From: Bacillus cereus
GTDB taxonomy: Bacteria > Bacillota > Bacilli > Bacillales > Bacillaceae_G
DNA length: 39,618 nucleotides
NCBI RefSeq assembly: GCF_002584535.1
Contig: NZ_NUOT01000086.1
Span: 1 to 39,618, forward strand
Reading direction: 5' to 3'
The position numbers and the translations under genes are program-made. Under the pieces are notes generated by a model. That model made no database searches, was not told the DNA's origin, and saw nothing but the letters and a program-made list of their open reading frames with translations. This document shows, one piece after another, positions 4,859-31,248 of this stretch (position 1 is the stretch's first letter; every line of letters begins with the position of its first letter).

Positions 4859-5470
4859 TTATTTATTGGGATTAGATAATCCATAATAAAACATTGTTAG
4901 TAATTCTTTTGTGTGTTGTTCATGATTCATATCAAGCAAGAAAGGGGCCTGTTGTTCACCTAATTGATTAAACATATTAATATATAGCAGAATCATTTCT
5001 TGTGACAGATCAGGGTTAATTTCTCCATCTTCTTGAGCGCGTCGAACAAAACTGAGGAAAATTGGGATGATAGTTTTATTTTGGTATGAAATCAAAAATT
5101 CTCGCAGTTTTTGGTCGCTATGCATAGCTTGTTCAATCATTTCAGGATGAAATATACTGGATTGTTGTAGTTTGCGTGTTAACATCTGATGCATTTTTTC
5201 CTTAAAACAGAGTTGCGATTTAATTAACTCTTCATAAAAGGAAACCTCTTCTATTGTAAAATCCATAATTAATTCTCGGAAAAGTGCATCTTTGCTACCA
5301 AAGTGATTATAAATTGTTACTTGAGACACCTGTGCCTGTTTAGCTATATCTTCAATTTTTACATCTTTGTAGCCTTTCTCTGTAAAAAGAGAAAAAGCTG
5401 CTTTTTTTATGGCCTCCTTTTTCTTTTTTTTGACTCTTTCAAATCCATTTAATGTTGTTGTATTCCTCAT
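4859..5470 (-). CDS. TetR/AcrR-family transcriptional regulator
   Basis: This 203-residue repressor has a basic N-terminus (KKKKK at 14-18) and a TetR helix-turn-helix at about 20-65. The domain shows AAFSLFTEKGYKDVKIEDIA, then VSQVTIYNHFGSKDALF. The rest is the variable ligand-binding and dimerisation domain. ATG at 5470 has an AAGGAGG site upstream. The gene lies between the exporter it probably controls and the SDR-ketosynthase operon transcribed in the opposite direction. The intergenic region carries two copies of the palindrome that also flanks the ABC promoter. I infer that the protein binds all four sites and represses exporter, biosynthesis and itself. The inducer may be a pathway product or intermediate. 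Binding is not shown by sequence alone. Confidence 0.92.
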   Translation of the reverse strand: MRNTTTLNGFERVKKKKKEAIKKAAFSLFTEKGYKDVKIEDIAKQAQVSQVTIYNHFGSKDALFRELIMDFTIEEVSFYEELIKSQLCFKEKMHQMLTRKLQQSSIFHPEMIEQAMHSDQKLREFLISYQNKTIIPIFLSFVRRAQEDGEINPDLSQEMILLYINMFNQLGEQQAPFLLDMNHEQHTKELLTMFYYGLSNPNK

Positions 5471-5524: not shown

Positions 5525-5530
5525 GAATTT

Positions 5531-5576
5531 CAACTCTTTTTGAAATTTATGTAACCATTAATTTCAAAAAGAGTTG
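5531..5576. promoter_or_regulatory. TetR-type operator, site 3 (long palindrome)
   Basis: The 17-nt arms 5531-5547 and 5560-5576 (CAACTCTTTTTGAAATT and its exact complement) surround a 12-nt spacer. The core TGAAAT-14-ATTTCA matches the other three sites. It lies between the TetR promoter and the cluster promoter, and its right arm touches the cluster -35 box. Confidence 0.8.
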
Positions 5577-5602
5577 ATTATTTACAAATTAAGGATTATA
5601 AT
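5574..5602 (+). promoter_or_regulatory. Sigma-A promoter of the SDR-ketosynthase operon
   Basis: The -35 box TTGATT (5574-5579) and the perfect -10 box TATAAT (5597-5602) are 17 nt apart. Operator-to-promoter distances match those at the ABC promoter within 1 bp. The implied 5' leader is long (about 190 nt to the SDR start) and contains a small AGTTATA/TATAACT hairpin near 5704-5720, but no recognised riboswitch. Confidence 0.72.
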
Positions 5603-5803: not shown

Positions 5804-6544
5804 ATGCAATTAGATTCCAAGGTCGCAATAGTTACAGGTGGAACAAGAGGGATTGGGAAAGCTATAGCTAAAACCTTCTTGGAGGCGGGTGCAATAGTGA
5901 TATGTGCAGCCAGAAAAGAGAATGAATTTAAAGAGTTACATTCTCAGTTTCCTCTTAGGGCTATTTTTTCAGAAGTCGATGTAAGGGATGCTGAATCAGT
6001 TAAGCAAATGGTTCAGTCCGCGATCTCTAATTACGGTCAAGTAGATATTATGGTAGCGAATGCTGGGGTTTTAAGGGATTCATTATTAATCAATATGACT
6101 TGTGAAGATTGGAATGAATCTATTAACACAAATTTAAATGGTGTTTTTAACTGTACTCATGCTGTAATAGAGCACATGGTTGAACGAAAATCGGGTCATA
6201 TTATTAATGTTTCATCAGCAGCAGCAACTCGTGTAAATATAGGTCAAGCCAATTATTGTGCTTCTAAGGCTGGAGTTGAAATGTTTACTAAAGTCGCAGC
6301 TATGGAACTAGGACCACATGGGGTTAGGGTTAATTGTCTTTCTCCGGGAATTATTGAAGAAGGTATGGGTGCTGAATTGGTGAAAAAAGAAAAGATTTGG
6401 GAAAGGTATCAAAGAAGAATGGCTCTTCGGCGGGCTGGGACATCAGATGAGATATCAAAGGCTGCTTTATTCCTAGTAACAGATTCAAGCTCGTATGTTA
6501 ATGGACATGTTTTAGAAGTAAATGGTGGTTTGTTATGGGGCTGA
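5804..6544 (+). CDS. SDR-family reductase (FabG-like)
   Basis: This 246-residue short-chain dehydrogenase probably reduces a beta-keto thioester to a beta-hydroxy thioester with NAD(P)H. The Rossmann motif TGGTRGIG is at 11-18, NAGV at 86-89, and the catalytic set Asn110, Ser138, Tyr151 and Lys155 (YCASK) is complete. The length and the C-terminal VNGHVLEVNGG motif are typical of FabG/PhaB-type reductases. An AAAGGAGTGA site precedes the ATG. It is the first gene of the operon and is followed by KS1 after 24 nt. It is the obvious source of ketoreduction for the ketosynthases. Whether it prefers ACP- or CoA-bound substrates cannot be told, though the absence of an ACP gene favours CoA. Confidence 0.93.
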   Translation: MQLDSKVAIVTGGTRGIGKAIAKTFLEAGAIVICAARKENEFKELHSQFPLRAIFSEVDVRDAESVKQMVQSAISNYGQVDIMVANAGVLRDSLLINMTCEDWNESINTNLNGVFNCTHAVIEHMVERKSGHIINVSSAAATRVNIGQANYCASKAGVEMFTKVAAMELGPHGVRVNCLSPGIIEEGMGAELVKKEKIWERYQRRMALRRAGTSDEISKAALFLVTDSSSYVNGHVLEVNGGLLWG

Positions 6545-6568
6545 TTAGAAAGGAGGAGTTTTAAAGAA

Positions 6569-7618
6569 ATGTTGACTGTACCAAAAGTTGATGGTAAGCA
6601 AAATGGTCTTACATACCCTGTAGGAATTATGGGAACAGGAATGTATGTTCCTGAAAATGTAATAAATAATAATTATTGGGAGAGTCGCCTGGATACTACT
6701 AGTAATTGGATTATAGAAAAAACAGGCATTATAGAAAGACGTCACATTAGTAAGGATATTTCCACATCTGACATGTGCGTTGCAGCAGGGAAAGAAGCTT
6801 TGGATAGATGTGGTATTGCTGCCAAAGATCTAGATGCCATAATTATAGCAACAATTACACCTGACTATCAGTTACCTTCAACAGCGTTAATTGTAAAAGA
6901 AAAGTTAAAAGCTGATAATGCAATTCCACTAGATTTAACACAAGTAGCTTGTGCAGGTGTAGTTTTCGGTGTTTATTTAGGAGTACATCTTCTACAAAAT
7001 AAACAATTTAATAATGTATTAGTTATAGGAGCCGATGCATTATCACGTATATATAATCCTGAAGATAGAGGATCATGTGTATTTTTTGGAGATGCGTGTG
7101 GTGCTATGGTTTTACATAGAATGAAAGAGGAGTCACTGGGGGTTTTGTCTTGGGATATTGGTTCGAAATTCAATATAAATGGGGCAGGAGTTTCCCATGG
7201 TGGGGCAAAATATCCACTCTCACAGCAAGATTTTAATAATGGTAAACATTATCTTTATATGGAAGGTAAGGAAGTTTGGAAGGAAGCTGTGAAAGCTTTA
7301 CCAGCAACAATTGAACGCTCTATTCATAAAGCAGGATTAACAGTTCCACAAATTGATTTTTTTGCTGTACATCAAGCAAACAAAAGGTTAATTCAACATG
7401 TTTTTGACAATCTAGGTGTAGATTCTGAGAAAACTTTATTTAATGTACATAAGTATGGAAATACAGGAGCAGGTACTATACCAACAGTATTACATGAAGC
7501 AATAATAAGTAAAAAAATAAAAAATCGGGATTTAGTGTCATTAGCCGGTATAGGGGCAGGATTTAAGTGGGGCTCCTTATTAATTAGACACTCTTCTGAT
7601 TCAGAAGATTTTGAATAG
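6569..7618 (+). CDS. KAS III-like ketosynthase KS1 (full triad)
   Basis: This 349-residue FabH-type thiolase-fold enzyme keeps the full KAS III triad: Cys128 (QVACAG), His268 (AVHQAN) and Asn298 (YGNTGAG). Such enzymes catalyse decarboxylative condensation of an acyl starter with a malonyl unit, or sometimes acyl transfer. The start has AAAGGAGG about 10 nt upstream. It carries ~20 extra N-terminal residues and an acidic C-terminal tail (DSEDFE) past the normal FabH end; KS2 and KS9 have similar PEDF tails. It sits directly after the SDR and 11 nt before KS2. The triad suggests a real condensing enzyme, but its starter and extender are unknown. Confidence 0.92.
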   Translation: MLTVPKVDGKQNGLTYPVGIMGTGMYVPENVINNNYWESRLDTTSNWIIEKTGIIERRHISKDISTSDMCVAAGKEALDRCGIAAKDLDAIIIATITPDYQLPSTALIVKEKLKADNAIPLDLTQVACAGVVFGVYLGVHLLQNKQFNNVLVIGADALSRIYNPEDRGSCVFFGDACGAMVLHRMKEESLGVLSWDIGSKFNINGAGVSHGGAKYPLSQQDFNNGKHYLYMEGKEVWKEAVKALPATIERSIHKAGLTVPQIDFFAVHQANKRLIQHVFDNLGVDSEKTLFNVHKYGNTGAGTIPTVLHEAIISKKIKNRDLVSLAGIGAGFKWGSLLIRHSSDSEDFE

Positions 7619-7629
7619 TAGGTGAGGAA

Positions 7630-8649
7630 ATGAATAAACACATAAAATCTGTAGGTATAGCCGGTATAGGATCATATGTACCTCATAAAGTACTAACTAA
7701 TTCAGATTTAGAAAAAATGGTAGATACGTCTGATGAATGGATTGAAAAACGTATTGGGATAAAAGAAAGAAGGATTGCAGAACCAGATGAATTTGCATCC
7801 GATATGGGAGTTAAAGCTTTACTAGACGCTTGTGAAAAATCAAGTATTAAGTTAGAAGAAATTGATTTGTTGGTGTGTGGCTCTAATACACCTGATTATA
7901 ATAGTCCGCAAATGGCTGCTTTAATATTAAATAAAGCAGGGATGCGTAACACGGTGGCTATTGATATTCGTGCTGGGGGATGCCCAGGAGGTGTTTTTAC
8001 TGTAGATGCAGCAGCGCAATATGTAGCAACAGGCAGATATAAAACAGTAGCAGTTGTTAATACAGAATTGAACTCATCAATTTTAAACTGGGAAGATAGG
8101 ACTACTTGTGTAATTATGGGAGATGCAGCAGCATGTGTAATTTTACGTGCTTGTAAACCAGAAAAGGGGATACTTCATACAATTCTATGTAATGATCCGT
8201 CAGGTTATTTTGTCGGTTATATACCAGCTGGAGGTAGTGTGATTCCAACTAGTTTAGAAACGTTAGAAAATAAAATGGGATACTTTCATATGGATGGACG
8301 AGCTATATGGGATTTTGCTACGACTAAAGTACCTGAACTAATAAAAGATTTATCTACAGAAACAGGATATGCGTTAAATGAGGTTGATTTATATATATCT
8401 CATCAAGCAAATCTAAATATTATAAAAGAAATTATGAAAAAAATAGAGGTTCCATTTTCTAAAACCTTTACAAATATAGAGAAATACGGAAATACTTCTA
8501 GTGCTTCAGTCTTATTAGCAATTTGTGAAGCTGTACAAGAAAGACGACTGAATAAAGATGATTTACTATTTACATTTGCCTTTGGTGCAGGTTTATCATA
8601 TGGGGCAACAGCTATAAGATGGTGTGGCCCAGAAGACTTTTTAGATTAA
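7630..8649 (+). CDS. KAS III-like ketosynthase KS2 (full triad)
   Basis: This 339-residue KAS III-type enzyme has Cys118 (RAGGCPGG), His258 (ISHQAN) and Asn288 (YGNTSSAS). It also has the FabH-family N-terminal signature TNSDLEKMVDTSDEWI and KERRIA. It ends IRWCGPEDFLD, an extension beyond the usual FabH terminus. By eye KS9 is its closest relative, with the same SGSNTPDY, DPSGYF and PAGG motifs and the same tail. The gene is in the middle of the operon, with GGTGAGG before its ATG and 36 nt before the dehydrogenase. It is probably catalytic. Its separation from near-twin KS9 suggests a different step or chain length rather than simple redundancy; that is inference. Confidence 0.93.
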   Translation: MNKHIKSVGIAGIGSYVPHKVLTNSDLEKMVDTSDEWIEKRIGIKERRIAEPDEFASDMGVKALLDACEKSSIKLEEIDLLVCGSNTPDYNSPQMAALILNKAGMRNTVAIDIRAGGCPGGVFTVDAAAQYVATGRYKTVAVVNTELNSSILNWEDRTTCVIMGDAAACVILRACKPEKGILHTILCNDPSGYFVGYIPAGGSVIPTSLETLENKMGYFHMDGRAIWDFATTKVPELIKDLSTETGYALNEVDLYISHQANLNIIKEIMKKIEVPFSKTFTNIEKYGNTSSASVLLAICEAVQERRLNKDDLLFTFAFGAGLSYGATAIRWCGPEDFLD

Positions 8650-8685
8650 ATACTCATAAAAGTATAAATAAAGGAGAAGAACAGA

Positions 8686-9519
8686 ATGAATGATAAAAAA
8701 GTAGCAGTTATAGGAATAGGAGCAATTGGAAGGGGCGTTGTTCACTCTTATGCATTGGCAGGTTGTAAAGTATGGGCTGTAACAAGAAACGGAGAGGACA
8801 AAATGACTTCTTATATCGAAAAAGAAGTAGAGAAAGGACGGTTAAGTTTTGAACAAAAAGAAATGATTCTTTCAAATGTTTTACATTGTAAATTAGAAGA
8901 GCTTCCAGAAGTAGGATTAGTTATTGAAGCAATAATTGAAGATGTAGAAGAAAAACAGAAATTGTTTAGTTATTTAGATGAAACACAGCCAACTTCAACT
9001 GTTTTGGCATCTTCCACATCTACTATACCTATTAGCCAAATATCCTCATTAAGCAAAAATAAAGATAGAATAGTAGGGATGCACTTTTCAACACCTGTGC
9101 CAATAATGGAATTAGTTGAAGTAATTCGGTCTGTGTTTACTAGTGAAGAAATACTAGAGAAAACAATGAAATATTGCGAATTAATTAATAAAGTAGGAGT
9201 CGTTGTGAAAGATTTTCCAGGTTTTGTAGTATCTAGATTAGCTCAAGCGATGATTAATGAAGCGGCTTACATCTTAATGCAAGGTATTGCGGATGCAGAA
9301 GCTATTGATACAATTGCTAAATTAGGATTGAATGTTCCCATCGGTCCGTTAAAACTAGTAGATCAAACAGGCATTGATGTGGCATTAAATGGAATGGAAT
9401 CAATGCGGAATTTACTAGGAGATCAAAGATATACACCGTGTCCACTATTCCGTCAAAAGGTATATGATGGGCACCTAGGAAGAAAAGTGGGATGTGGTTT
9501 TTATAAATATGAAAAATAG
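8686..9519 (+). CDS. 3-hydroxyacyl-CoA dehydrogenase family protein
   Basis: This 277-residue NAD(P)-dependent dehydrogenase belongs to the HbdA/PaaH/FadB-type family and interconverts 3-ketoacyl-CoA and 3-hydroxyacyl-CoA. The Rossmann motif GIGAIGRG is at 10-17. The catalytic segment GMHFSTPVPIMELVEV gives His133 and Glu145. PGFVVSRL has Ser where mitochondrial-type enzymes have Asn, a variant I recall in other bacterial members. The C-terminal all-helical domain is complete. It starts after AAAGGAG and its end overlaps KS3 by 11 nt. A CoA-specific dehydrogenase inside a ketosynthase operon without an ACP supports chemistry on CoA thioesters. It may act with the opposite stereochemistry to the SDR. 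Confidence 0.92.
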   Translation: MNDKKVAVIGIGAIGRGVVHSYALAGCKVWAVTRNGEDKMTSYIEKEVEKGRLSFEQKEMILSNVLHCKLEELPEVGLVIEAIIEDVEEKQKLFSYLDETQPTSTVLASSTSTIPISQISSLSKNKDRIVGMHFSTPVPIMELVEVIRSVFTSEEILEKTMKYCELINKVGVVVKDFPGFVVSRLAQAMINEAAYILMQGIADAEAIDTIAKLGLNVPIGPLKLVDQTGIDVALNGMESMRNLLGDQRYTPCPLFRQKVYDGHLGRKVGCGFYKYEK

Positions 9520-10468
9520 TATTGGAGTTGCTGCTTTAGGTCTTTATTTACCAAAAGAAAATCAAGAAATAATTTCAAAAGAGAACTCAAAAATAAATGT
9601 TCATATAGCAAATTATGAAGATACAACTTACGAAATGGGAAAAAAAGCATTAATGAATGCTTTAGAAAACTTAAATGAATGTAAAACAGATTTGAAATAC
9701 TGGATACACTGTAATGATTCTCCAGGTGATTATTTATTTCAATTAGTAGGTCGCAAAATATTAGACCGTGTTAATGTCGGAAGGTGTAACACATATAATA
9801 TATATCAGTCTTCTAATTGTTCGCTATTAGCGATTAAACTTTTAATTGATCATTTACGTAATGACGAAAAGGCTTTTCTTGGAGGTATATCCACCAGTAA
9901 TCATTGGCAGTATCATAGTGAAGATAGAACTGTAGGGGATGCGGTTCTTGGAGATGGAGCGGCTACTCTTTTATTAAAAAAGGGAGTAGAACAATACACA
10001 TTTGATTCATTTGCTATAAAAACAATTGGTGAGTATCATGATATAGCTGCTATAAAAATAGGTGGATATTTACAACCTTTAAATGAACGGGTTATTCAAG
10101 AAGGGGGTTTTAAATACACTCTTATAAATGAAGATAAGTATCTACAACTAAAGAAAGAGACGCATAAAATTGCTTGTGAGGTAGCAGATGAAGCTCTTTT
10201 AAAAGCTGGTATCACAAAGAAAGAAATTCAATTGGTGGTATTGCATAGCCAAACACCTGGTGTATCAAGGTCATTTATTCAGGAGTATGGGTTAAATCCT
10301 AGTATAGTTATTGAGACAGTAAACGAAATCGGATATATGTGTTCTGGTGGAATACTATTTTCTTTAAGTAAGGCTATTTATAATTATAAACCTTCAAAGG
10401 GAAGTAAAATACTTGTTATATCAATTGGGATAGATGGAAATTGGTGCGCAACTATCATGACGGTTTAA
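9509..10468 (+). CDS. KAS III-like protein KS3 (degenerate active site)
   Basis: This 319-residue thiolase-fold protein aligns with KAS III but has a damaged active site. At the nucleophile loop it reads YQSSNCSLL. A Cys is present (104), but the alignment places Asn103 or a Ser at the catalytic site, and sister KS5 has Ser there. His246 (VLHSQTPG) is kept, while the Asn position is Tyr276 (IGYMCSGG). I chose the ATG at 9509 because it aligns with the start of KS5; a GTG at 9494 is possible. It overlaps the dehydrogenase by 11 nt and precedes KS4 by 18 nt. I infer a structural or chain-binding partner of KS4, as PqsB is to PqsC, rather than an independent condensing enzyme. Confidence 0.85.
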   Translation: MKNSIGVAALGLYLPKENQEIISKENSKINVHIANYEDTTYEMGKKALMNALENLNECKTDLKYWIHCNDSPGDYLFQLVGRKILDRVNVGRCNTYNIYQSSNCSLLAIKLLIDHLRNDEKAFLGGISTSNHWQYHSEDRTVGDAVLGDGAATLLLKKGVEQYTFDSFAIKTIGEYHDIAAIKIGGYLQPLNERVIQEGGFKYTLINEDKYLQLKKETHKIACEVADEALLKAGITKKEIQLVVLHSQTPGVSRSFIQEYGLNPSIVIETVNEIGYMCSGGILFSLSKAIYNYKPSKGSKILVISIGIDGNWCATIMTV

Positions 10469-10486
10469 AGTAAAAGGAGAATAGAT

Positions 10487-11461
10487 ATGATTGGAATTGC
10501 AGGTATAGGAGTTACTTTTCCTGATAAGGTAGTCGATACTTGGGAAAGGTACGCGCAACCTAATGGGATAAGAAAAGATATTTGGCAGCGCATGGGATGT
10601 CATTCCACGTATGTTTTAGAACCACCTTTAACACCAACAGATTTAGCTGTTCAAGCGGCGAATAAGGCGTTATTAGAGGCTAAAGTTAATAAAAATGAGG
10701 TAGATTTAATAATTTGTAACAATTATAATTCAGAATATTTGTATTGGCAAACTAGCGCGAAAATACAATCTCTTTTAGGCTGCGAAAATGCTTATACTTT
10801 TGATGTTTTTGGTGGTTGTAATGCAGTAGGATCAGTAGTTCGTTCGGCAATAGATATTATGTCACAAGATAGCTCGGTTCAAAATTGTTTATTAGTTTTT
10901 ACTGAGGCGATAAGTGGTGAAACATGGCCACAATTTATCTCAGATGGGGCTTGTGCCTTGCTTTTAAAGAGGGAATATTCAGATCTCGTTTTTTTATCAC
11001 ATAGCCAAGTGAGTGATATCTTTCCAAGTTTTCAACGATTACCTGTTGGGGGAACAGCCAAGCCATTTGAGAAAGATATGAAGTTTTCAGGAAACGTATA
11101 TGAAAATTTCGAATTTAGTGCTGAGAATTTTCGCAAAGAAATTAAGCCTATAATATATCCCTCATGTGAAAAGGCAATAAGAGAAGCTATACACAAATCA
11201 GGGCATAAAATATCGAACATAGATCAAATTTTTCTTGTACACCAGCAAAAGTATGTCAACGAGAAAATATTAGAAATGCTAGATTTAGATTTAAATTTGT
11301 CTCCAATTGATTATATTGATGATATGGGACATGTGTCTGGTTCTGATGTATTTATATGTATGAAAAGAGCAATTGAAGATGGAAGAATAAAAAAAGGTGA
11401 TTTATTGGTTTTTGCTGTAATGGGATTAATGGATTTTCATAGTTGGGTAATTCGCTATTAG
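10487..11461 (+). CDS. KAS III-like ketosynthase KS4 (Cys-His-His)
   Basis: This 324-residue KAS III-type protein has the nucleophile Cys111 (VFGGCNAVG) and His252 (LVHQQK). The Asn of the KAS III triad is replaced by His282 (MGHVSGSD). A Cys-His-His set is the rule in KAS I/II enzymes, but those His residues come from different motifs. KS6 has the same change. PqsC also works without the triad Asn as I recall, so loss of Asn need not abolish activity. AAAAGGAG precedes the ATG. It follows degenerate KS3 and precedes degenerate KS5, giving a KS3-KS4 pair. It is probably the active half of a heterodimer. Confidence 0.87.
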   Translation: MIGIAGIGVTFPDKVVDTWERYAQPNGIRKDIWQRMGCHSTYVLEPPLTPTDLAVQAANKALLEAKVNKNEVDLIICNNYNSEYLYWQTSAKIQSLLGCENAYTFDVFGGCNAVGSVVRSAIDIMSQDSSVQNCLLVFTEAISGETWPQFISDGACALLLKREYSDLVFLSHSQVSDIFPSFQRLPVGGTAKPFEKDMKFSGNVYENFEFSAENFRKEIKPIIYPSCEKAIREAIHKSGHKISNIDQIFLVHQQKYVNEKILEMLDLDLNLSPIDYIDDMGHVSGSDVFICMKRAIEDGRIKKGDLLVFAVMGLMDFHSWVIRY

Positions 11462-11484
11462 TGATACATAAAAAGGAGAATATT

Positions 11485-12453
11485 ATGGAAAAACCTATTA
11501 TTGGAATACGTGCCGTAGGAAGTTATATGCCAGAAAAAATACGTACAATTACTTCATCAGAAGAAATGGAGATTAATATAAGAGTCGCATCCGAAGAAGA
11601 AACTACATATGAAATGGGAGCGAATTCTATAAGAGATATGGTGAAACGTGCTGGAATTAAAATTAATGAACTAGAAAAACAGTATTTTTTTGTAAACCAA
11701 GAATCTTATGGAGATTACCTTTTTCAAATGCATGGTAGGCAGATCATGGATAGGGTGGGGGTTAACAGGATAGTTTCATTTAATATGCATCAGGGTGGAA
11801 GCTCATCTTTACTTTTAATGAGACTGCTAAAAAACCATCTTCTGGTTAATAAGGACATCAAATTTGGAATTGTTGGTGCCCCTCAATCATGGGAGTTTCA
11901 TAGTGTAAATAGGTCTTTGGGAGATGCGATTCTTGGTGATGGTGCGGCGAGTTTATTGATGGAAAAAGGATATGAGAGATATCGTATTTTATCAATTGTA
12001 AATAAAACAATTGGAAAATATCATGATGTAATCTATAACGAGGTAGGTGGATGGAAGGTACCTATAACCGATAAACCTTGTCGTGAGGGAAAGTTCGTTT
12101 ATAAAATTCATAATATTAAAAAGTACAAGGAAATTAAGGGGAATATGTTTTCTTTTCTTGTACCAGTTATAAAAAAGGCTTTACAGGAGGCAAATGTTAG
12201 CTGGGAAGAAATAAAAAAGTTTTTAATCCATAGCCCTACTCCACTTATGCATGAAGGATTTTTAAAATATTTTAAATTAGAAGAAGATCAAGTTATTGAC
12301 ACTGGAGAAAAATATGGTTTTATGTGTTCCGCTGGTTTACTGCTATCTTTACAAACTTTAGTACACGACACGTATTTAAGTGAAGGGAGTAAAGTTTTAA
12401 TTGTATCATTTGGTGTAGATGGAAACTGGGGAGCCTCAGTATTAGAAGTGTAG
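11485..12453 (+). CDS. KAS III-like protein KS5 (no catalytic Cys)
   Basis: This 322-residue protein is a clear relative of KS3: matching lengths, INxRVA/INVHIA and TTYEMG near residue 40, YGDYLFQ, and GDGAA. The nucleophile loop reads HQGGSSSLL, with Ser106-108 and no Cys, so it cannot use the normal thioester mechanism. His249 (LIHSPTP) remains and the Asn position is Phe279 (YGFMCSAG). The ATG at 11485 has AAAAGGAG at a proper distance; the upstream in-frame start overlaps KS4 and lacks a site. It is followed after 17 nt by KS6. Best reading: a non-catalytic partner of KS6. A Ser nucleophile, as proposed for DpsC-type proteins, is an alternative. Confidence 0.87.
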   Translation: MEKPIIGIRAVGSYMPEKIRTITSSEEMEINIRVASEEETTYEMGANSIRDMVKRAGIKINELEKQYFFVNQESYGDYLFQMHGRQIMDRVGVNRIVSFNMHQGGSSSLLLMRLLKNHLLVNKDIKFGIVGAPQSWEFHSVNRSLGDAILGDGAASLLMEKGYERYRILSIVNKTIGKYHDVIYNEVGGWKVPITDKPCREGKFVYKIHNIKKYKEIKGNMFSFLVPVIKKALQEANVSWEEIKKFLIHSPTPLMHEGFLKYFKLEEDQVIDTGEKYGFMCSAGLLLSLQTLVHDTYLSEGSKVLIVSFGVDGNWGASVLEV

Positions 12454-12470
12454 AGGAAGGAGGAGTAATT

Positions 12471-13454
12471 TTGAACGAAAAGATAGGTATTTCAGGTATT
12501 GGAATTGCTTTGCCTGATAGATTAGTAAGTACATGGGATGTTTTGGCTCCTGCTGCGAAAATGAGAGAATCACTAAAAGAGACACTAGGGTGTAATTATG
12601 TCCCTATTGCAAATAAAGAAGAAAGTCCTATGTATTTCTCGTTAAAGGCTGTAAAAGAAGCTTTAAACGAATCCAATACTAAACCAGAAGAGGTTGATTT
12701 TATTATTGCTAATAATCTTTCATCTGACTACGATAATTGGCAAAGTTCAGCATATATTGCAGAGCAGTTTTCTTGTACAAATGCTATAACAGTAGATGTA
12801 TATGGTGGTTGTAATACCACAGGTATGGCTTATCATATGGCAGTAGAGGCAATTAAAGCGGATCAACAAATTAACACTGTATTGATTGCACTAACGGAGC
12901 ACTTGGGGGGGAGAACTTTTCCTCAATTCATAGGTGATGGTGCATGTGCTCTAATTGTTCAACGAGGTTCTTCGGATTTAATATCATTAAATTATCTTAA
13001 TTTAAATGAGAAAATGCCTATTCTGGGAGTAATGCCTGAAGGAGGAGTAGTGGTACCTTTCTCATCCGAAACCAGATTTGATGGTGGATGGGAAGATCGG
13101 GTCGAATTTAATTTTGATAAATACCGCAAAGAATTAAAGCCTATATTTGCTGATATTTCTACACGACCAATCTTGGAATTATGTGCAAAATCAAATATAA
13201 AAGTAGAAGATTTAGATATGCTATTTGTAGTTCATCAACAAATGGAGTATCACTTATCACTTCTTAAAGCTCTAGGATTGCCAACTTCAAAGGCACCTCT
13301 ACAGTATATAGAAAATTTAGGGCATATTAGTGGGTTTGATGTTTTTATTGTTTTAAAATGGGCGATTCGAGACAAATTAGTTAAAAAGGGAGATTTGTTA
13401 GGATTCATGGTAATGGGGCTTGGAGAATGGCATGCATTTTTACTTAAGTACTAA
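12471..13454 (+). CDS. KAS III-like ketosynthase KS6 (Cys-His-His)
   Basis: This 327-residue protein is closely similar to KS4. Cys114 (VYGGCNTTG) and His255 (VVHQQM) are present, and the triad Asn is replaced by His285 (LGHISGFD). It begins with TTG behind a strong AAGGAGGAG site and shares the ISGIGIALPDRLVSTW start pattern with KS4. KS5-KS6 thus repeats the order and classes of KS3-KS4. It is likely the catalytic subunit of a second heterodimer, perhaps acting at a later chain length. The His substitution is shared by both copies, so it is unlikely to be random decay. Confidence 0.87.
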   Translation: MNEKIGISGIGIALPDRLVSTWDVLAPAAKMRESLKETLGCNYVPIANKEESPMYFSLKAVKEALNESNTKPEEVDFIIANNLSSDYDNWQSSAYIAEQFSCTNAITVDVYGGCNTTGMAYHMAVEAIKADQQINTVLIALTEHLGGRTFPQFIGDGACALIVQRGSSDLISLNYLNLNEKMPILGVMPEGGVVVPFSSETRFDGGWEDRVEFNFDKYRKELKPIFADISTRPILELCAKSNIKVEDLDMLFVVHQQMEYHLSLLKALGLPTSKAPLQYIENLGHISGFDVFIVLKWAIRDKLVKKGDLLGFMVMGLGEWHAFLLKY

Positions 13455-13481
13455 TACATATATACAGAAAGGAGAAACGAT

Positions 13482-14474
13482 TTGAAAAGTGTTGTAGGCA
13501 TGGTTGATGTTTCTATCTATCTTCCACCAAATAAACTTATAAGTGATGTACTTGTACCTGGAAAATTGAATGAAAGAAAACTAGCGCAAATAGGGGTAAA
13601 GTCTGTTCCTGTGGCTCAAAAGGCTTTGGCCAGTGATTTGGCGATTAATGCAGCTAGAGCATTGTTAGAAAAAAATAAAATCAACCCTAAAGAAATCGAT
13701 ATCTTAGTATATGCTGGGAGTTTAACTCCCGATTTTCTTGCATGGCTTCCTTCAGCTCGAGTTTGCCATGAATTAAACCTAAGTAATGCTTTTGGGTTTG
13801 ATTTAAATATTGGATGTGGAAGTTTCCAATTAGCCATTAAGTTAGTTTCAGAGACTCTTTGCAATAATAAATGGAGTACAGCATTGCTAGTTTCAGGAGA
13901 TAAATTTGACTATTTAACTAATAATCAAGAAACTAATGAAGTGATTATGGGCGATGCAGGTGCAGCAATGCTCCTAAAAAAGAATTACGATAAAAATGTA
14001 TTCTTTGGTTTTGATGCTATAACTAAGGGGTATTATCATGACATGACTTTATATACTGGATTTACGCCAGCAGCTAATAAGTTTATAGAAGACAATCCTT
14101 CTATTCAAAAAGATTTATGGACTTTCGCTAATAAGGGAAAACTTGAAAGTTTTTTAGAGGAAAATATAGATAATTATATTAGAATGAGCGAAAAAGTATT
14201 GTTTGATAACGGAATGAATATTGAAGATATATCATATGTTGTAGTCCCTACAGGAAGACTGGATATTATGGATAAGATAGTGCAAAAATTAAACTTTCCC
14301 AGGGAAAAAACCAATATTCCATTTATTGAAAATTTAGGAGATTGTGCGGCCTCTGGATTTGCAATTGATATAAAGAATATTATAGAGCATTATCAGCCAA
14401 ATTCTGGGGAATACACGCTTTGCTTAGGAGCAGGATTAGGAATCTCCTGGATGGGGTCAATTTTAAGACATTAA
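13482..14474 (+). CDS. KAS III-like protein KS7 (Cys, Thr, Asp)
   Basis: This 330-residue KAS III-fold protein begins with TTG behind AAAGGAGAAA. It has the nucleophile Cys112 (NIGCGSFQ). The His motif reads VVPTGRLD, with Thr257 in place of His, and the Asn position is Asp287 (LGDCAASG). KS10 shows the same pattern with Ser instead of Thr. This is not a decarboxylating KAS III site. Some KAS III-like acyltransferases such as CerJ have Asp in place of Asn but keep His, so acyl transfer is one idea and a partner role is another. The two relatives sit in different parts of the operon. Long inserts around 185-235 (TGFTPAANKFIEDNP) are also shared only with KS10. Confidence 0.85.
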   Translation: MKSVVGMVDVSIYLPPNKLISDVLVPGKLNERKLAQIGVKSVPVAQKALASDLAINAARALLEKNKINPKEIDILVYAGSLTPDFLAWLPSARVCHELNLSNAFGFDLNIGCGSFQLAIKLVSETLCNNKWSTALLVSGDKFDYLTNNQETNEVIMGDAGAAMLLKKNYDKNVFFGFDAITKGYYHDMTLYTGFTPAANKFIEDNPSIQKDLWTFANKGKLESFLEENIDNYIRMSEKVLFDNGMNIEDISYVVVPTGRLDIMDKIVQKLNFPREKTNIPFIENLGDCAASGFAIDIKNIIEHYQPNSGEYTLCLGAGLGISWMGSILRH

Positions 14475-14492
14475 GAAAGGATGTTGTTTAAT

Positions 14493-15476
14493 ATGGAAAG
14501 TGTAGCGATATCAGGAAGAATTATAGGGACAGGCTCGTATGTTCCGGAGAAGGTGTTAACAAATAGGGATTTAGAAAATATGATGGATACGAGTGATGAA
14601 TGGATTCAGGAAAAATATGGGATTAGGGAACGAAGAGTAGTTTCTAATCCTGATGAACAAAATATTTCAGATTTAGCATATTATGCAGCTAAAAATGCGC
14701 TAGCGGCTGCAAATTTAGAAGCAGAGGATTTGGACTTGGTTATTCTAGCTTCCATTTATTCTGATATAAAAAGCCCAGCTACTGCATGCATATTGCAAGG
14801 GAAACTTGGAGCAAAAAATGCTGTTGCGTTTGACATGAATATAGGTGGGTGTCCAAATGCAGTTTTTGCAATGACTACAGCTTTAAAATACCTTGATGGT
14901 AAACGATTTAAAAGGGCTTTAGTGGTATGTGCAGAGATATATTCACGTTTTATTGATTGGTCTTATCGTAATACAGCTTGTTTTTTAGGTGATGGAGCTG
15001 GTGCTGTTATTTTAGAAGCTTGTCCTAAAGAAGAGGGTATTTTAGCGTATAATTTACATACTGATGGAACTAAGTATAATAAAGCCTGGTGGCCTGGTGG
15101 AGGAACAGTGGATGTACCATTAGAGAAACAAACTCCACATATCGAAGGAAAAGAAGTTTGGAAATTTGGACATACAGCTACCCCAAATGTAATTATTGAA
15201 ACTGTACAGGATACAGGCTTAAAAATGGAAGAGATAGATTTTGTGGTGTTCCATCAAGCAAATGTTAACATAATTCATAATGTAATGGATATGATTGGAC
15301 TACCACGTGAACGAACATACATGAATAATTACAAATATGGGAATACAGGTGGGGCATCTGCTTTAATTGCTTTGGATGAAAGTATACGTGAAGGAAGAAT
15401 TCAAAAAGGGGATAATATTGCCATTTGTTCATATGGAGCAGGACTAGCATGGGGTGCAATGGTTATGAAGTATTAG
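14493..15476 (+). CDS. KAS III-like ketosynthase KS8 (full triad)
   Basis: This 327-residue FabH-like enzyme has Cys120 (IGGCPNAV), His254 (VFHQAN) and Asn284 (YGNTGGAS). It also carries the typical FabH N-terminus GTGSYVPEKVLTNRDLENMMDTSDEWI and IRERRV. Among the ten it looks the most like housekeeping FabH and ends at the usual position without an extra tail. I chose ATG 14493 because AAAGG lies about 10 nt upstream; ATG 14481 directly abuts that site. It is followed by the only sizeable gap in the operon (about 100 nt) before the flavin monooxygenase. It might provide the priming condensation, which is inference. Confidence 0.92.
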   Translation: MESVAISGRIIGTGSYVPEKVLTNRDLENMMDTSDEWIQEKYGIRERRVVSNPDEQNISDLAYYAAKNALAAANLEAEDLDLVILASIYSDIKSPATACILQGKLGAKNAVAFDMNIGGCPNAVFAMTTALKYLDGKRFKRALVVCAEIYSRFIDWSYRNTACFLGDGAGAVILEACPKEEGILAYNLHTDGTKYNKAWWPGGGTVDVPLEKQTPHIEGKEVWKFGHTATPNVIIETVQDTGLKMEEIDFVVFHQANVNIIHNVMDMIGLPRERTYMNNYKYGNTGGASALIALDESIREGRIQKGDNIAICSYGAGLAWGAMVMKY

Positions 15477-15580
15477 TCTTTTATTGTTACTTGAGGTGCA
15501 GTGACCACTCAGTGTCAATAATGTTTTTTGATAATTCGGTCATCTTGTAAATTCTAACTATGCATTTTAGGAGGAACGTT

Positions 15581-16591
15581 ATGAAATATTCTATATTTTG
15601 TTTAGCAGATTATTATGAGGAAGATAACACATTAATTTCTTCTTATTATAAAGAGATACAGCAACAAATTATTTTGGCAGATTTATTAGATTTTGATACC
15701 TTTTGGGTTGCGGAACATCATTTTAAAAATGAACATGGAAGTTTAGCATCTCCAGCTTTATTTTTAGCAGCTGCATCGCAGAATACAGAGAAAATTAGGT
15801 TAGGAGTGGCGGTTTCTGTAATACCTTTGCATAATCCTATTCGAATTGCTGAAGACTTTGCAATGTTAGATGTTTTATCAAATGGACGTATGAGGTTTGC
15901 CACTGGTAGTGGGTATTTACAATACGAATTTGAAGGTTTCAATATTAAATCTGATCAACGTTTAAGTTTATTAAACGAAGGGATTGAAGTGATTAATCGT
16001 CTTTGGACAGAGGAAAAGGTCAATTTTCAGGGTAAACATTTTCAAGTGAATACGGGGCTAAATATTAGGCCTAATCGTTGTGTAGAACCTCCAATGATGG
16101 CTGTAGTGCGGACTGAAGCAGTACATGCGATGGCTAAAAAAGGACAACCCATATTTATATCATCTCTTTCAATTAAAAATATAGAAGAATTAAATGAACT
16201 GGTTCGGGAATACAAACAAATATACTTAGAGCATGGTCATCCGGAAAATGAAATGAATATTTCGTATTGTTTAAATGTTGTTTTGGATCATAGTGATGAG
16301 GTTGCTAGGGAAGCAGGAATTAATGCGTTACAACGATTATTTGATCATCGTTGTATTCAACGAACACCACTTGATTTTATTGATGAAAATCTGTGCTTGT
16401 TTGGTAGTCCGAGCAAAGTTGCTAAACTCTTAAACCAATATATTGAAAGTGGTATTACTGAATTGGCAATTTCAGCATCATTTGGTCAAATAGGTCATAA
16501 ACAAGCTTGTAATACAATGGACTTACTAAAGAAAGAAGTGTTACCTCTTGTAGACAAGAAGAATAATGTTGATTACGTAGTATCGAAATAA
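15581..16591 (+). CDS. Luciferase-like flavin-dependent monooxygenase
   Basis: This 336-residue protein has the bacterial luciferase-like TIM-barrel fold. It has the N-terminal FCLADYYEED segment, WVAEHHF at 42-48, then ASPALFLAAASQNTEKIRLG and RIAEDFAMLDVLSNGR. FGSPSKVAKLLNQY near the C-terminus is typical of the family. I chose ATG 15581, which follows AGGAGG; an in-frame ATG at 15560 lies before that site. Such enzymes use reduced FMN or F420 and oxygen for hydroxylation, Baeyer-Villiger oxidation or related steps. It sits between KS8 and KS9 and is the only tailoring oxidase in the operon. No flavin reductase gene is nearby, so a host reductase would be needed. Confidence 0.9.
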   Translation: MKYSIFCLADYYEEDNTLISSYYKEIQQQIILADLLDFDTFWVAEHHFKNEHGSLASPALFLAAASQNTEKIRLGVAVSVIPLHNPIRIAEDFAMLDVLSNGRMRFATGSGYLQYEFEGFNIKSDQRLSLLNEGIEVINRLWTEEKVNFQGKHFQVNTGLNIRPNRCVEPPMMAVVRTEAVHAMAKKGQPIFISSLSIKNIEELNELVREYKQIYLEHGHPENEMNISYCLNVVLDHSDEVAREAGINALQRLFDHRCIQRTPLDFIDENLCLFGSPSKVAKLLNQYIESGITELAISASFGQIGHKQACNTMDLLKKEVLPLVDKKNNVDYVVSK

Positions 16592-16617
16592 TAGTTGATT
16601 TATAAGGGGCTGATTAA

Positions 16618-17643
16618 ATGCTAGGAACAAATCGTACTTTAAAGAATGTAGGAATTCTTTCAACTGGAAAGTATTTGCCTGAAAAAGTAATAACTAATTC
16701 TGATTGGGAAAAATTAGTGGATACTTCTGATGAATGGATTGTAAATAAAATTGGAATTAAAGAAAGACGTTTTGCGGCTTCAGATGAGGTAACATCAGAT
16801 TTAGGGGTAAAAGCTGTTGAAGATGCAATTAAAAGAGCAAATATTTCATTAGATGAGATTGATTTATTAATCTCTGGTTCTAACACACCTGATTATCCAA
16901 GTCCTCAGTTAGCTACGATGATGCTTAGAAAGCTTGGAATAAAAAATACTCCTGGGTTTGATGTTCGTTCGGGAGGTTGTTCTAGTGGTGTATTTTCTTT
17001 ATCTGTAGGTGCTCGTTTTGTCGCAGATGGTACATACAAAACGGTTGCTGTTGTGATACCTGAAATCAATTCTAGAGTAATTTCTTGGAAAGATCGTAGT
17101 ACGTGTGTCATATTGGGAGATGGTGCAGGTTGTTATATTCTACGGGCAACAAAAGAAGGAACGGGTATACTGTTTTCAGAATTGGGAAGTGACCCTTCTG
17201 GATATTTTTCAGCTTATGTTCCAGCTGGAGGAGACGCCCTACCATTAACAAAAGAGAATATTGATGAAGGTTTACAATATTTCCATATGGATGGGCCCGC
17301 TGTTTGGAAGTTTGGGACGTCTATAATTCCAAAGCTTGCAAATAATATATCTATGAATTTAGGTATTCCCTTAGATAACGTAGATTTATTTCTTACTCAT
17401 CAAGCAAATATAAATATTATACGTAAGGGATTAGAAGATTTAAAAGTACCTTTTGAAAAGGCGTTAATAAATGTAGATCGTTACGGTAATATGGCGGGGG
17501 CAAATTTACCTGTTGCTTTGACAGAAGCAGTAGATGACGGAGTGTTAACACCAGGTAAGTTAATCTATCTTATTGTATTTGGAGCAGGTTTATCTTATGC
17601 ATCAATGGCTATTAGATGGTGTGCTCCTGAAGATTTTGAGTAA
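16618..17643 (+). CDS. KAS III-like ketosynthase KS9 (full triad)
   Basis: This 341-residue KAS III enzyme has Cys121 (RSGGCSSG), His261 (LTHQAN) and Asn291 (YGNMAGAN). It closely resembles KS2 (SGSNTPDY, SDPSGYF, PAGG, FHMDGPAVW) and ends IRWCAPEDFE. The Asn motif reads GNMAGA rather than GNTSAA, a small change next to the catalytic Asn. AAGGGG precedes the ATG. It follows the flavin enzyme by 26 nt and is followed by KS10 after 8 nt. The KS9-KS10 pair places a full-triad enzyme next to a Cys-Ser-Asp one, so a heterodimer is possible here too. Confidence 0.92.
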   Translation: MLGTNRTLKNVGILSTGKYLPEKVITNSDWEKLVDTSDEWIVNKIGIKERRFAASDEVTSDLGVKAVEDAIKRANISLDEIDLLISGSNTPDYPSPQLATMMLRKLGIKNTPGFDVRSGGCSSGVFSLSVGARFVADGTYKTVAVVIPEINSRVISWKDRSTCVILGDGAGCYILRATKEGTGILFSELGSDPSGYFSAYVPAGGDALPLTKENIDEGLQYFHMDGPAVWKFGTSIIPKLANNISMNLGIPLDNVDLFLTHQANINIIRKGLEDLKVPFEKALINVDRYGNMAGANLPVALTEAVDDGVLTPGKLIYLIVFGAGLSYASMAIRWCAPEDFE

Positions 17644-17651
17644 GGGAAAGG

Positions 17652-18662
17652 GTGAGGTTGTTGGAATCGGTAGGCATTAGAGGAATTAATATTTACTTTC
17701 CAAAACAAAGATACTATACTAATGCTCTTTTAGAGTCTGAAATAGTAGATGAAAAGGTTTTTCGTAAAATTGGAGTTGATAGTGTTCCAATTGCTGATAA
17801 TAAAGAAACCCCTACAGGAATGGGAATTAAGGCTGCAAAAGATTTATTGCTGCAATTGCAAGTCGATCCAGATGAAATTGATTTGGTTATTTATACAGGG
17901 GCAACGCCTCCAGACTATTTTGTATGGTCACCAGCAGCAAAAATATGTAATGAACTTAAAATGAGTAAAGCCTTTGGTTTTGAAGTGCAACTTGGATGTG
18001 GGGGTGTACAACCTGCATTCCAAACAGCAAAAGCCATGTTACAGACATCTTCTGAATGGAAAAAAGCTTTAATTGTAGCAGCAGATATTTGGAGTGGATA
18101 TACTAAAGACCATTATGGACCGGGTTTGATATTTGGTGATTCAAGTGCTGCAGCTTTATTAGAAAAGTCATCAAGTTCACTAGCTCGTTTGGTCGATTTT
18201 TATGGTTATACAGATGGTAAATTCACAAACTTAGCTCATGTTACCAGTGGAACACCTTATTCTGAAAAAATTATCAGAGAAAACCCAGACTTATTAGAGA
18301 ATCATTATACATTTATAAATAAAGAATTAATTTCAGAATTGAATCAAAATAATATAGAGAATTATTGTATGGTCGCATCAAGGGTATTAGAGAAGAGTCG
18401 ATGGAGCTTAAATGATGTTGATTATTTAATTCTTCCCTCTGGAAGAATTGATCTTATGGAAAAAATTGCTTCGGTTCTCAATTTTAATACAGAAAAAACT
18501 AATATTTCATTTTTAAAAAACCAAGGAGACTTGGGTGCACCAGGAATTTTAATTGATTTATATAATATGCTTAAGAATATGCCAATAAGGAAGGGAGATA
18601 AGATTTTGGTCCTTGCAGCTGGTGTAGGAATTAGTTGGATGGGATTGACTATAGAAATATAA
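17652..18662 (+). CDS. KAS III-like protein KS10 (Cys, Ser, Asp)
   Basis: This 336-residue protein is the relative of KS7. Cys116 (QLGCGGVQ) is present, Ser263 (ILPSGRID) replaces the catalytic His and Asp293 (QGDLGAPG) replaces the Asn. It starts at GTG 17652, with AGGG five nt upstream. A TTG at 17661 would fit the KS7 N-terminus better, so the start is uncertain by three codons. It is the last gene of the operon; a strong terminator lies 290 nt downstream. Conservation of the same substitutions in KS7 and KS10 argues that this form has a real function, perhaps acyl transfer, chain release or a partner role. Confidence 0.85.
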   Translation: MRLLESVGIRGINIYFPKQRYYTNALLESEIVDEKVFRKIGVDSVPIADNKETPTGMGIKAAKDLLLQLQVDPDEIDLVIYTGATPPDYFVWSPAAKICNELKMSKAFGFEVQLGCGGVQPAFQTAKAMLQTSSEWKKALIVAADIWSGYTKDHYGPGLIFGDSSAAALLEKSSSSLARLVDFYGYTDGKFTNLAHVTSGTPYSEKIIRENPDLLENHYTFINKELISELNQNNIENYCMVASRVLEKSRWSLNDVDYLILPSGRIDLMEKIASVLNFNTEKTNISFLKNQGDLGAPGILIDLYNMLKNMPIRKGDKILVLAAGVGISWMGLTIEI

Positions 18663-18950
18663 AATAGTGCAAAATTTTATGTGATAAAGATAGGTGTACT
18701 GCAATTCTATTAATGAAGTTTTTATAAGATTAGGACATTCAATCTTTTAAAGAGAAAAACCATTTATAGGTTAAATAATGTTTGTAAAATGCTATAAGAC
18801 CATAAAATTTCAAGTGCAATTCTTGTGATTATTATTTTAAATTTTTGTTCGAAGTAAACATGATCATATGAGTGAATCATTAAGTTAAGTCATAGATTTC
18901 ACCAAGAAAAAGTTTATATGACAAATAAAAAATTAATGAAGCATTTAGAT
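18663..18950. other. Intergenic stretch after KS10, no gene seen
   Basis: This AT-rich gap has no convincing reading frame. A lone half-site ATTTCAAG near 18807 resembles one operator arm, but no inverted partner lies at the right distance. Confidence 0.5.
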
Positions 18951-19003
18951 TTACATTAGGATATTTTTACAAGAGTAAAGATATCCTAATGTAATGGTTT
19001 TTT
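18951..19003 (+). terminator. Strong rho-independent terminator after KS10
   Basis: TTACATTAGGATAT (18951-18964) pairs perfectly with ATATCCTAATGTAA (18981-18994), followed by TGG and a T run. It should end the ketosynthase transcript. The next gene starts only 39 nt later, which leaves little room for a separate promoter. Confidence 0.9.
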
Positions 19004-19041
19004 AATAAAATGGATGGGCTATTTTAAAAGGAGGACAGTAA

Positions 19042-19452
19042 GTGATTGAGAAAATTGACCATATCGGAATTGCGGTACAATCTATAGAATCAGTTTTGCC
19101 ATTCTATACAGAAGTGTTAAAATTGAAACTTTTAGGAATAGAAGAAGTACAATCACAACAAGTAAAAATAGCTTTTTTAGTAGTAGGGGAAAGTAAATTG
19201 GAATTGTTAGAGCCCCTAAATGACAAAGGGGCAATTGCACAATTTATTCAAAAAAGTGGTGAAGGTATTCATCATATAGCATTTGGAGTCCAATCGATTA
19301 AACAAAGAATTCAGGATATAAAGAAAAATGGAATACAGATGATTGATGAATTACCTCGAATTGGTGCACAAGGCGCACAAATTGCTTTTATTCATCCAAA
19401 GTCAACATATGGTACATTGTACGAATTATGTGATAAAGGAGAGCAAATATGA
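19042..19452 (+). CDS. Methylmalonyl-CoA epimerase (VOC family)
   Basis: This 136-residue protein has two glyoxalase/VOC half-repeats with the epimerase pattern: DHIGIAV with His7 at the N-terminus, GIHHIAF near His78, and YGTLYELC with Glu128. These match the metal ligands of methylmalonyl-CoA epimerases, and the length fits. The enzyme interconverts (2R)- and (2S)-methylmalonyl-CoA in the cytoplasm. It starts at GTG behind AAAAGGAGG and overlaps the carboxyltransferase start by 4 nt. With that gene it could supply methylmalonyl-CoA of the right configuration for the ketosynthases. It could equally be the ordinary propionate-metabolism pair found in bacilli (YqjC/YqjD type), so its link to the cluster is inference. 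Confidence 0.88.
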   Translation: MIEKIDHIGIAVQSIESVLPFYTEVLKLKLLGIEEVQSQQVKIAFLVVGESKLELLEPLNDKGAIAQFIQKSGEGIHHIAFGVQSIKQRIQDIKKNGIQMIDELPRIGAQGAQIAFIHPKSTYGTLYELCDKGEQI

Positions 19453-28040: not shown

Positions 28041-28118
28041 TGTTTTCTCCTCTATAACTTTTATGAATATTCTAACATACCTTACCGATTCTTTATAAAA
28101 AGAAATTATCCTATTGTA

Positions 28119-30815: not shown

Positions 30816-30817
30816 TC

Positions 30818-31195: not shown

Positions 31196-31248
31196 AAAAA
31201 TTTGCTCCCTTCAAACTATCTTATTATTAAAAGGATAAATTATTTTAC

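Follow-up and report, generated by a model that had tools for sequence, protein, structure and literature searches.

A Bacillus cereus operon with ten KAS III-like genes, four of which encode proteins lacking some of the usual catalytic residues

Background

Nonactin synthesis in Streptomyces is described in PMC4979870 as the work of a non-iterative type II polyketide synthase (PKS) that has no acyl carrier protein (ACP). Non-iterative type II PKSs are characterized in PMC9582728 by a mix of type II ketosynthases (KSs), which are ketoacyl-ACP synthases (KAS) I/II, and type III KSs; NonJ, NonK and CerJ are named in PMC10006239 as KS homologues that form C-O bonds. The pamamycin cluster is presented in PMC10644645 as two main biosynthetic operons. 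Its protein PamS is classed in PMC4979870 as a cyclase of the NonS type and in PMC10644645 as a putative hydrolase for resistance, and for this reason the hydratase comparison made below uses NonS as its sole reference. A different arrangement is found in PqsBC of Pseudomonas aeruginosa, a FabH-like heterodimer in which PqsB lacks all three catalytic residues and PqsC lacks the Asn (PMC4807248). According to the same paper, His and Asn mediate extender decarboxylation in FabH-like enzymes, and the use of a residue-deficient KAS III partner is called unique. Here a 13-gene operon of Bacillus cereus is analysed, located on contig NZ_NUOT01000086.1 of assembly GCF_002584535.1, ten genes of which encode KAS III-like proteins, designated KS1 to KS10 in gene order. 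The window refers to the whole stretch of 39,618 nucleotides that was analysed.

Compared by gene content rather than by KS sequence, the operon appears to resemble nonactin synthesis in its logic. It shares with the nonactin and pamamycin clusters of Streptomyces the presence of several discrete KSs in one cluster (ten here), and with the nonactin cluster the lack of a cognate ACP and acyltransferase, here within the window. In contrast to both, its KSs are all KAS III, with no KAS I/II in the window, and it possesses a luciferase-like monooxygenase, four degenerate KSs and low-GC, Bacillaceae-like DNA. The window also lacks the NonS-type tetrahydrofuran-forming enzyme of nonactin synthesis, annotated as an enoyl-CoA hydratase. 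Because both this hydratase and KAS I/II are missing from the window, the operon is not classed as a nonactin-type member. The nonactin-like character suggested by the original prediction, which was made from the DNA letters, is supported in part, by the discrete KSs and by the ACP and acyltransferase that are absent from the window; that the chain rides on CoA and not on host ACP is a hypothesis.

The explanation favoured here, which we place at about an even chance, is a specialised pathway of discrete KAS III proteins where competent KSs would be joined by degenerate neighbours in the manner of PqsC with PqsB.

Organization of the operon

Thirteen open, intact and closely packed genes occupy positions 5804-18662 of the plus strand and are listed in gene order in Table 1. 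The three genes that do not encode KSs are those of a short-chain dehydrogenase/reductase (SDR) ahead of KS1, a 3-hydroxyacyl-CoA dehydrogenase between KS2 and KS3, and a luciferase-like monooxygenase between KS8 and KS9. The original prediction of thirteen same-strand genes, ten of them KAS III-like, agrees with this result: all 13 open reading frames (ORFs) are open, and the KAS III C-terminal domain PF08541 of Pfam matches ten of the 13 proteins with 39.8 to 106.6 bits against a cutoff of 26.6. Intergenic spacing, with the starts as listed, ranges from -26 to 83 nt. Two starts can be improved, as the ATG at 11485 of KS5 and the ATG at 15581 of the monooxygenase each have a ribosome-binding site and are better than the TTG at 11443 of the ORF list and the listed 15560, respectively. 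The SDR scores 251.2 bits with TIGR01830, below the cutoff of 297.75, and slightly exceeds the cutoffs of the subfamily models NF005559 (glucose 1-dehydrogenase) and NF009466 (FabG). The best relative of the monooxygenase in PDB is 8k74, an alkanal monooxygenase alpha chain (8.8e-27).

Catalytic residues and relationships of the KAS III proteins

Four classes of catalytic residues are found among the ten KSs. KS1, KS2, KS8 and KS9 possess Cys-His-Asn, KS4 and KS6 Cys-His-His, and KS7 and KS10 Cys-Pro-Asp, while KS3 and KS5 have no Cys. The first His of KS4 and KS6 is displaced in the alignment by one residue towards the C-terminus, and most of the PRK06840-like proteins aligned show the same pattern. 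Judged by these residues, the four members with Cys-His-Asn look conventionally competent for condensation and KS4 and KS6 possibly so, whereas KS3, KS5, KS7 and KS10 do not, since it is His and Asn that mediate extender decarboxylation in FabH-like enzymes. Ten condensing enzymes each acting once, as first proposed, are therefore not what the alignment indicates: the four degenerate members have lost either the Cys or both the His and the Asn, and KS4 and KS6 carry His in place of Asn.

The scores of KS1, KS2, KS8 and KS9 (Table 1) all exceed the PRK09352 (NF006829) cutoff of 249 bits, with the other six below it, and the stricter TIGR00747 fabH model (cutoff 292.1) is passed by KS2 alone (303.9). 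For those six the best NCBIfam model is PRK06840 (NF005308), with which KS4 and KS6 share Cys-His-His; all six lie far under its cutoff of 315 bits, KS10 with 161.4, KS7 with 120.1, KS5 with 99.7, KS3 with 79.6, and KS4 and KS6 with the scores given in Table 1. KS1, KS2, KS8 and KS9 keep the triad of the FabH of fatty acid synthesis and surpass the PRK09352 cutoff, but they possess one additional residue between the conserved Asp and the Cys. This residue is seen in none of 20 aligned FabHs, taken from 20 of the best 80 loci found with KS2 and KS9, which suggests that the four are not copies of a housekeeping FabH. Among the matches listed, the FabHs closest to them are 42-44% identical.

Pairwise identities among the ten KSs range from 14 to 52%, which rules out a recent amplification of KS genes. 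Paralogous pairs are formed by KS2 and KS9 (52% identity, tree support 100/100), KS4 and KS6 (39%, 100/100), KS3 and KS5 (38-39%, 95/79), and KS7 and KS10 (35-36%, 99/97), in a tree of 35 rows that leaves 17 of 32 inner forks open and carries a warning of long branches meeting. Taken together, the residue classes and the tree pairs suggest that a two-gene unit, KS3-KS4, was duplicated to give KS5-KS6, and hence that a Cys-less and a Cys-bearing protein have apparently been kept together twice. As in PqsBC, each of these units sets a residue-deficient KAS III beside a KAS III with Cys and His but no Asn. They differ from PqsBC in being two paralogous units accompanied by six more KAS III, for which heterodimers are presumed. 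Moreover, KS3 and KS5 keep a His, unlike PqsB, and KS4 and KS6 have His at the Asn position where PqsC has Val.

Predicted folds of two degenerate members

KS5 and KS7 were modelled with AlphaFold2 as single chains from alignments of 30 sequences, giving a predicted local distance difference test score (pLDDT) of 87.0 and a predicted template modelling score (pTM) of 0.89 for KS5, and 86.4 and 0.88 for KS7. In Foldseek comparisons with PDB, the KS5 model, with a predicted FabH/thiolase fold, matches enzymes of the FabH fold, including FabH 4dfe (TM 0.81) and PqsD 3h78 (0.84), and the KS7 model matches FabHs and the acyltransferase ChlB3. Both modelled members are therefore predicted to be folded KAS III proteins and not fragments. 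With the KAS III-fold acyltransferases CerJ and ChlB3, KS7 is linked to the former by sequence, CerJ being its third PDB sequence match (2.3e-16), and to the latter by predicted fold. The Asp that replaces Asn in KS7 and KS10 is presumably also a CerJ trait; KS7 and KS10 differ from CerJ in lacking the His as well, which we take CerJ to have kept.

Carrier protein and other functions absent from the window

The PP-binding, acyltransferase, KAS I/II and phosphopantetheinyl transferase families have no match in any of the 38 window ORFs scanned with Pfam, and no modular PKS was found in the window. The list of window ORFs of at least 80 amino acids has 44 entries; seven of them, mostly antisense overlaps, lie outside the Pfam scan. 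An ACP hidden in a small ORF was considered and rejected, as a motif scan of ORFs of 55-200 amino acids gave one antisense chance match. The absence of ACP, acyltransferase, phosphopantetheinyl transferase and modular PKS from the window, claimed at the outset, is borne out by these scans. The accompanying claim that a thioesterase is absent is weaker than that for the carrier protein, as two alpha/beta-hydrolases are encoded at 1305-2153 and 27396-28142. A NonS-type or other crotonase-type hydratase found no match among the 38 scanned ORFs, a result for the window only.

Distribution of related genes

Whole genomes sampled from the class Bacilli were searched for PF08541 at E<=1e-8, and 392 of 398 contain at least one match, with 0 to 7 per genome. 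These counts may be too low, because at most 12 candidates were scored per genome and degenerate members score lower. Fifteen of the genomes with at least five matches were scanned again at 1e-5, this time with every candidate scored; the maximum was 8, in one genome, and only one of the 15 (G323) had three matches within about 8 kb. Ten KAS III in 12 kb is far outside the range of the 398 genomes.

Positions 5804-20999 gave no megablast match to plasmids. With tblastn, KS5 matched 12 and KS6 16 plasmid records, all below 30% identity. Four of 28 plasmid places were examined, where KAS III genes lie beside ccrA in Streptomyces and beside fabZ in Metabacillus; the two Embleya regions among the four contain no second KS-like ORF. 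One Embleya protein (L001:11653-12861), encoded next to a CorA gene, groups with the Cys-less KS3 and KS5 (100/98) on a very long branch, and no further homologue of the window KSs was found in its 25-kb region. Among genome contigs, the KS3/KS5 search yielded 98 pattern matches and no relatives, and the KS2/KS9 search at least 589 pattern matches and at least 588 relatives, the best 80 of which were kept; none of the 85 loci examined after the latter search has more than one KS-like ORF. Viral contigs, searched three times, gave one fragment and no orthologous cluster. In genomes of Bacilli, KS3/KS5 relatives were encountered in 6 of 398 (best 85.9 bits) and, in another search, in none of 15, and in Bacillota genomes KS4/KS6 relatives in 17 of 398 (best 125.4 bits). 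The loci around these genome matches, viewed as 24 stretches of about 4 kb around all of them and 13 longer ones at 12 places around some, have at most three KS genes each. The locus with three, L122:7188-16176, does not resemble the present operon: it contains three KAS III with Cys, His and Asn (by eye) and three SDR-like genes in 9 kb, and represents another type of small locus with several KAS III genes.

The Bacillota loci L094-L111 and L112-L121 contain KAS III genes related to PRK06840, mostly with Cys-His-His where aligned, and several of them have genes for an SDR, a 3-hydroxyacyl-CoA dehydrogenase or both nearby. The neighbours of a full PRK06840 member (541.8 bits) in L115 are a CoA-transferase-like gene and genes resembling branched-chain amino acid transporters, and a second KAS III follows 3.6 kb away.

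No description of such an operon or of its product was found among the papers listed in a literature search that took in Bacillus, in keeping with the original prediction, which could match it to no described Bacillus product.

Flanking genes and mobile surroundings

The system may reach past 5804-18662 to three neighbours that the original prediction overlooked, a methylmalonyl-CoA epimerase and carboxyltransferase pair downstream, a divergent TetR gene and an ABC-2 exporter upstream (Table 1).

Table 1. Genes of the operon, in order, followed by neighbouring features of the window
Feature	Position	Strand	Evidence
SDR reductase (FabG-like)	5804..6544	+	PF13561 5.7e-63
KS1, FabH-type, Cys-His-Asn complete	6569..7618	+	PRK09352 317.7 bits
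KS2, FabH-type, Cys-His-Asn complete	7630..8649	+	PRK09352 325.4 bits; active-site alignment
3-hydroxyacyl-CoA dehydrogenase (3HCDH)	8686..9519	+	PF02737 and PF00725
KS3, Cys replaced by Ser, His kept, Asn replaced by Tyr	9494..10468	+	PF08541; active-site alignment
KS4, Cys-His-His (Asn replaced by His), PRK06840-like	10487..11461	+	PRK06840 150.7 bits
KS5, Cys replaced by Gly, His kept, Asn replaced by Phe	11485..12453	+	Start re-set; AlphaFold2 model, Foldseek
KS6, Cys-His-His, PRK06840-like	12471..13454	+	PRK06840 126.2 bits
KS7, Cys kept, His replaced by Pro, Asn replaced by Asp	13482..14474	+	Active-site alignment; AlphaFold2 model, Foldseek
KS8, FabH-type, Cys-His-Asn complete	14481..15476	+	PRK09352 321 bits
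Luciferase-like flavin mononucleotide (FMN) monooxygenase	15560..16591	+	PF00296 3.1e-53
KS9, FabH-type, Cys-His-Asn complete	16618..17643	+	PRK09352 306.2 bits; best PDB 1ub7 FabH
KS10, Cys kept, His replaced by Pro, Asn replaced by Asp	17652..18662	+	NCBIfam; active-site alignment
ABC-2 type exporter: ATPase 2720-3616, permease 3613-4419	2720..4419	+	Pfam ABC_tran, ABC2_membrane_2
TetR-family regulator, divergent from the operon	4859..5470	-	PF00440 1.3e-16
Candidate control region: 22-nt inverted repeat 5530-5551/5556-5577, 95% complementary	5530..5602	+	
Terminator-like hairpin, 20 pairs, 4 G-C	18951..18994	+	Longest stem found
Methylmalonyl-CoA epimerase	19042..19452	+	TIGR03081 151.1 bits, above equivalog cutoff 114.95
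Biotin-dependent acyl-CoA carboxyltransferase, PccB/MmdA type	19449..20999	+	PF01039 4.1e-199

The epimerase and carboxyltransferase genes share 4 nt, and the pair points to extender units of the methylmalonyl type. The carboxyltransferase scores 822.5 bits with the mmdA model TIGR01117, below its cutoff of 998.8, and its best PDB relative is 1vrg (745 bits), named propionyl-CoA carboxylase beta. The exporter ATPase is GldA-like and drrA-like in NCBIfam, below the cutoffs, and the permease has no NCBIfam match; from proximity, a role in export or self-protection is possible. The TetR protein weakly resembles the RefZ (44.9 bits, cutoff 180) and FadR (36.6 bits, cutoff 200) models. A sigma-A-like sequence, TTGATT-17-TATAAT, at 5574-5602 overlaps the inverted repeat and is suggestive of a promoter within a control region (5530-5602), although promoter-like matches over the scanned region show no enrichment (65 against 81.2 expected in shuffles). 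The hairpin after KS10 probably ends the 13-gene operon; terminator-like sites in all number 10 against 7.6 expected, which is near background. No Rfam match to a known structured RNA was obtained.

Pieces of mobile elements are located at 547-924, 23004-24170, 25596-26414, 30230-30529 and 36228-36470; they comprise a Mutator transposase fragment, a tyrosine recombinase, an Rpn nuclease, a resolvase-like fragment (recognized by eye, without a Pfam match) and an IS240-type DDE fragment. The presence of the Mutator, recombinase, IS240 and Rpn pieces is suggestive of a plasmid or of mobile DNA. Copies of the Rpn nuclease on Priestia plasmids share 88% identity with it, compared with 91.5% for one in a Klebsiella-labelled record (CP079755, Klebsiella grimontii pNY3A), where integrase and helicase genes surround it; that record is possibly mislabelled or a mixed assembly. 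Positions 30666-32435, where an AraC-type regulator and a glyoxalase are encoded, are 98.9% identical to a plasmid of the sea-water Bacillaceae bacterium C02. The matches of the Rpn nuclease and of this segment indicate a Bacillaceae affinity for the DNA around the operon.

Proposed pathway and alternatives

According to the favoured explanation, the product of the operon would be a short polyketide, assembled by KAS III enzymes that are discrete and not by a modular or iterative synthase. KS1, KS2, KS8 and KS9 would perform decarboxylative condensations, and KS4 and KS6 would either condense further or transfer acyl groups. The main role of the four degenerate KSs would be that of a partner subunit or of an acyl-transfer enzyme: KS3 and KS5 would be PqsB-like partners of the adjacent KS4 and KS6, and KS7 and KS10 would either partner the adjacent KS8 and KS9 or solely move acyl groups. 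Beta-keto groups would be reduced by the SDR and the 3-hydroxyacyl-CoA dehydrogenase, possibly to opposite configurations, and the FMN monooxygenase would insert oxygen. The downstream epimerase and carboxyltransferase may supply methylmalonyl-CoA, and methyl branches would then be expected. Regulation would fall to TetR, and the product may leave the cell through the ABC-2 exporter. A more elaborate form, which we consider doubtful, has up to five KAS III heterodimers acting in gene order, (KS1,KS2)(KS3,KS4)(KS5,KS6)(KS7,KS8)(KS9,KS10). Their substrates would be CoA thioesters, no dedicated carrier protein would take part, and tailoring genes separate some of the pairs.

Several observations weigh against this explanation. 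The tree does not join KS1, KS2, KS8 and KS9, leaving KS8 and KS2 with KS9 at an open fork and placing KS1 beside FabHs at 83/60, subject to its long-branch warning. By simple counting, 80 of 210 arrangements satisfy the division into five adjacent pairs, so that this arrangement is not significant by itself. Methylmalonyl-CoA supply is uncertain for three reasons. A 379-nt gap and the terminator-like hairpin separate the epimerase and carboxyltransferase genes from KS10, so that they probably form a separate transcription unit; a biotin carboxylase subunit is not among the scanned window ORFs; and the carboxyltransferase has Val aligned where the specificity residue of Streptomyces PccB is Asp, a column which we take to be the specificity position. 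A dehydratase, an enoyl reductase, a CoA ligase and a dedicated release enzyme were not identified in the operon. Host ACP could be the carrier, because absence from 39.6 kb does not speak for the genome. Finally, no second cluster was found in plasmids, viral contigs, genome contigs or the two 398-genome samples, which did not reach the genus of the window itself. The distance of such samples is illustrated by the Rpn nuclease of the window, whose best match in 250 Bacilli genomes is 52%, and the lack of a second cluster is not proof of rarity.

Two alternatives, to which we give equal and limited weight, have to be considered beside the PqsBC-like explanation. A carrier-free line of the nonactin type, in which every KS is used a single time, the substrates are CoA esters, and ester (C-O) bonds formed by some of the KSs lead to a macrodiolide or ionophore, would accord with the multiple discrete KSs, with a window that is as free of ACP as nonactin synthesis itself, and with the methylmalonyl-type supply genes nearby. 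We nevertheless regard it as unlikely, as residues on which the normal mechanism relies are missing from four of the ten KSs, and neither a homologue of the NonS-type enoyl-CoA hydratase nor KAS I/II occurs among the 38 scanned window ORFs. The other alternative turns on the choice between ACP and CoA. On this view the KSs are additional FabH-like enzymes that would tap the fatty acid synthase of the host, yielding an unusual lipid, a pyrone or a branched fatty acid derivative. In its favour, KS1, KS2, KS8 and KS9 exceed the generic KAS III cutoff, every bacterium should have an ACP, and malonyl-ACP is what FabH normally uses. It too seems rather improbable, on indirect grounds: CoA chemistry is favoured by the six more diverged KSs, by the 3-hydroxyacyl-CoA dehydrogenase and by the surroundings of PRK06840-like relatives, which include SDR or 3-hydroxyacyl-CoA dehydrogenase genes at several loci and, at the single locus viewed in full, CoA-transferase-like and transport genes.

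It is very unlikely that the operon is a starter, extender or side-chain supply locus for a PKS or nonribosomal peptide synthetase encoded elsewhere in the genome. The rest of such a system would lie outside the window, to which our view is limited, and a Streptomyces locus (L002) does have KAS III and 3-hydroxybutyryl-CoA dehydrogenase genes beside ccrA, downstream of an adenylation-domain gene; however, that locus has one KAS III and not ten, and the present operon possesses its own divergent regulator and a nearby exporter. Runaway duplication of a FabH-like gene with four copies now dying would explain why four KSs lack catalytic residues, but is scarcely credible given that all ten KS frames are intact, the members of diverged paralogous pairs (35-39% identity) agree in residue class, both AlphaFold2 models keep the fold, and the ten differ too much (14-52% identity) to be recent copies.

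Significance

If the PqsBC-like explanation is true, the range of non-iterative polyketide synthesis by discrete KSs would grow to include a Bacillaceae-like genome, here with KAS III proteins throughout, and residue-deficient KAS III partners would be used repeatedly within one pathway, whose product may be methyl-branched. If the array of five heterodimers is true, it would represent a PKS architecture distinct from modular, iterative KS-chain length factor and type III systems. The thirteen small, single-function genes suit reconstitution in Bacillus subtilis or E. coli, where the need for a carrier protein becomes directly testable.

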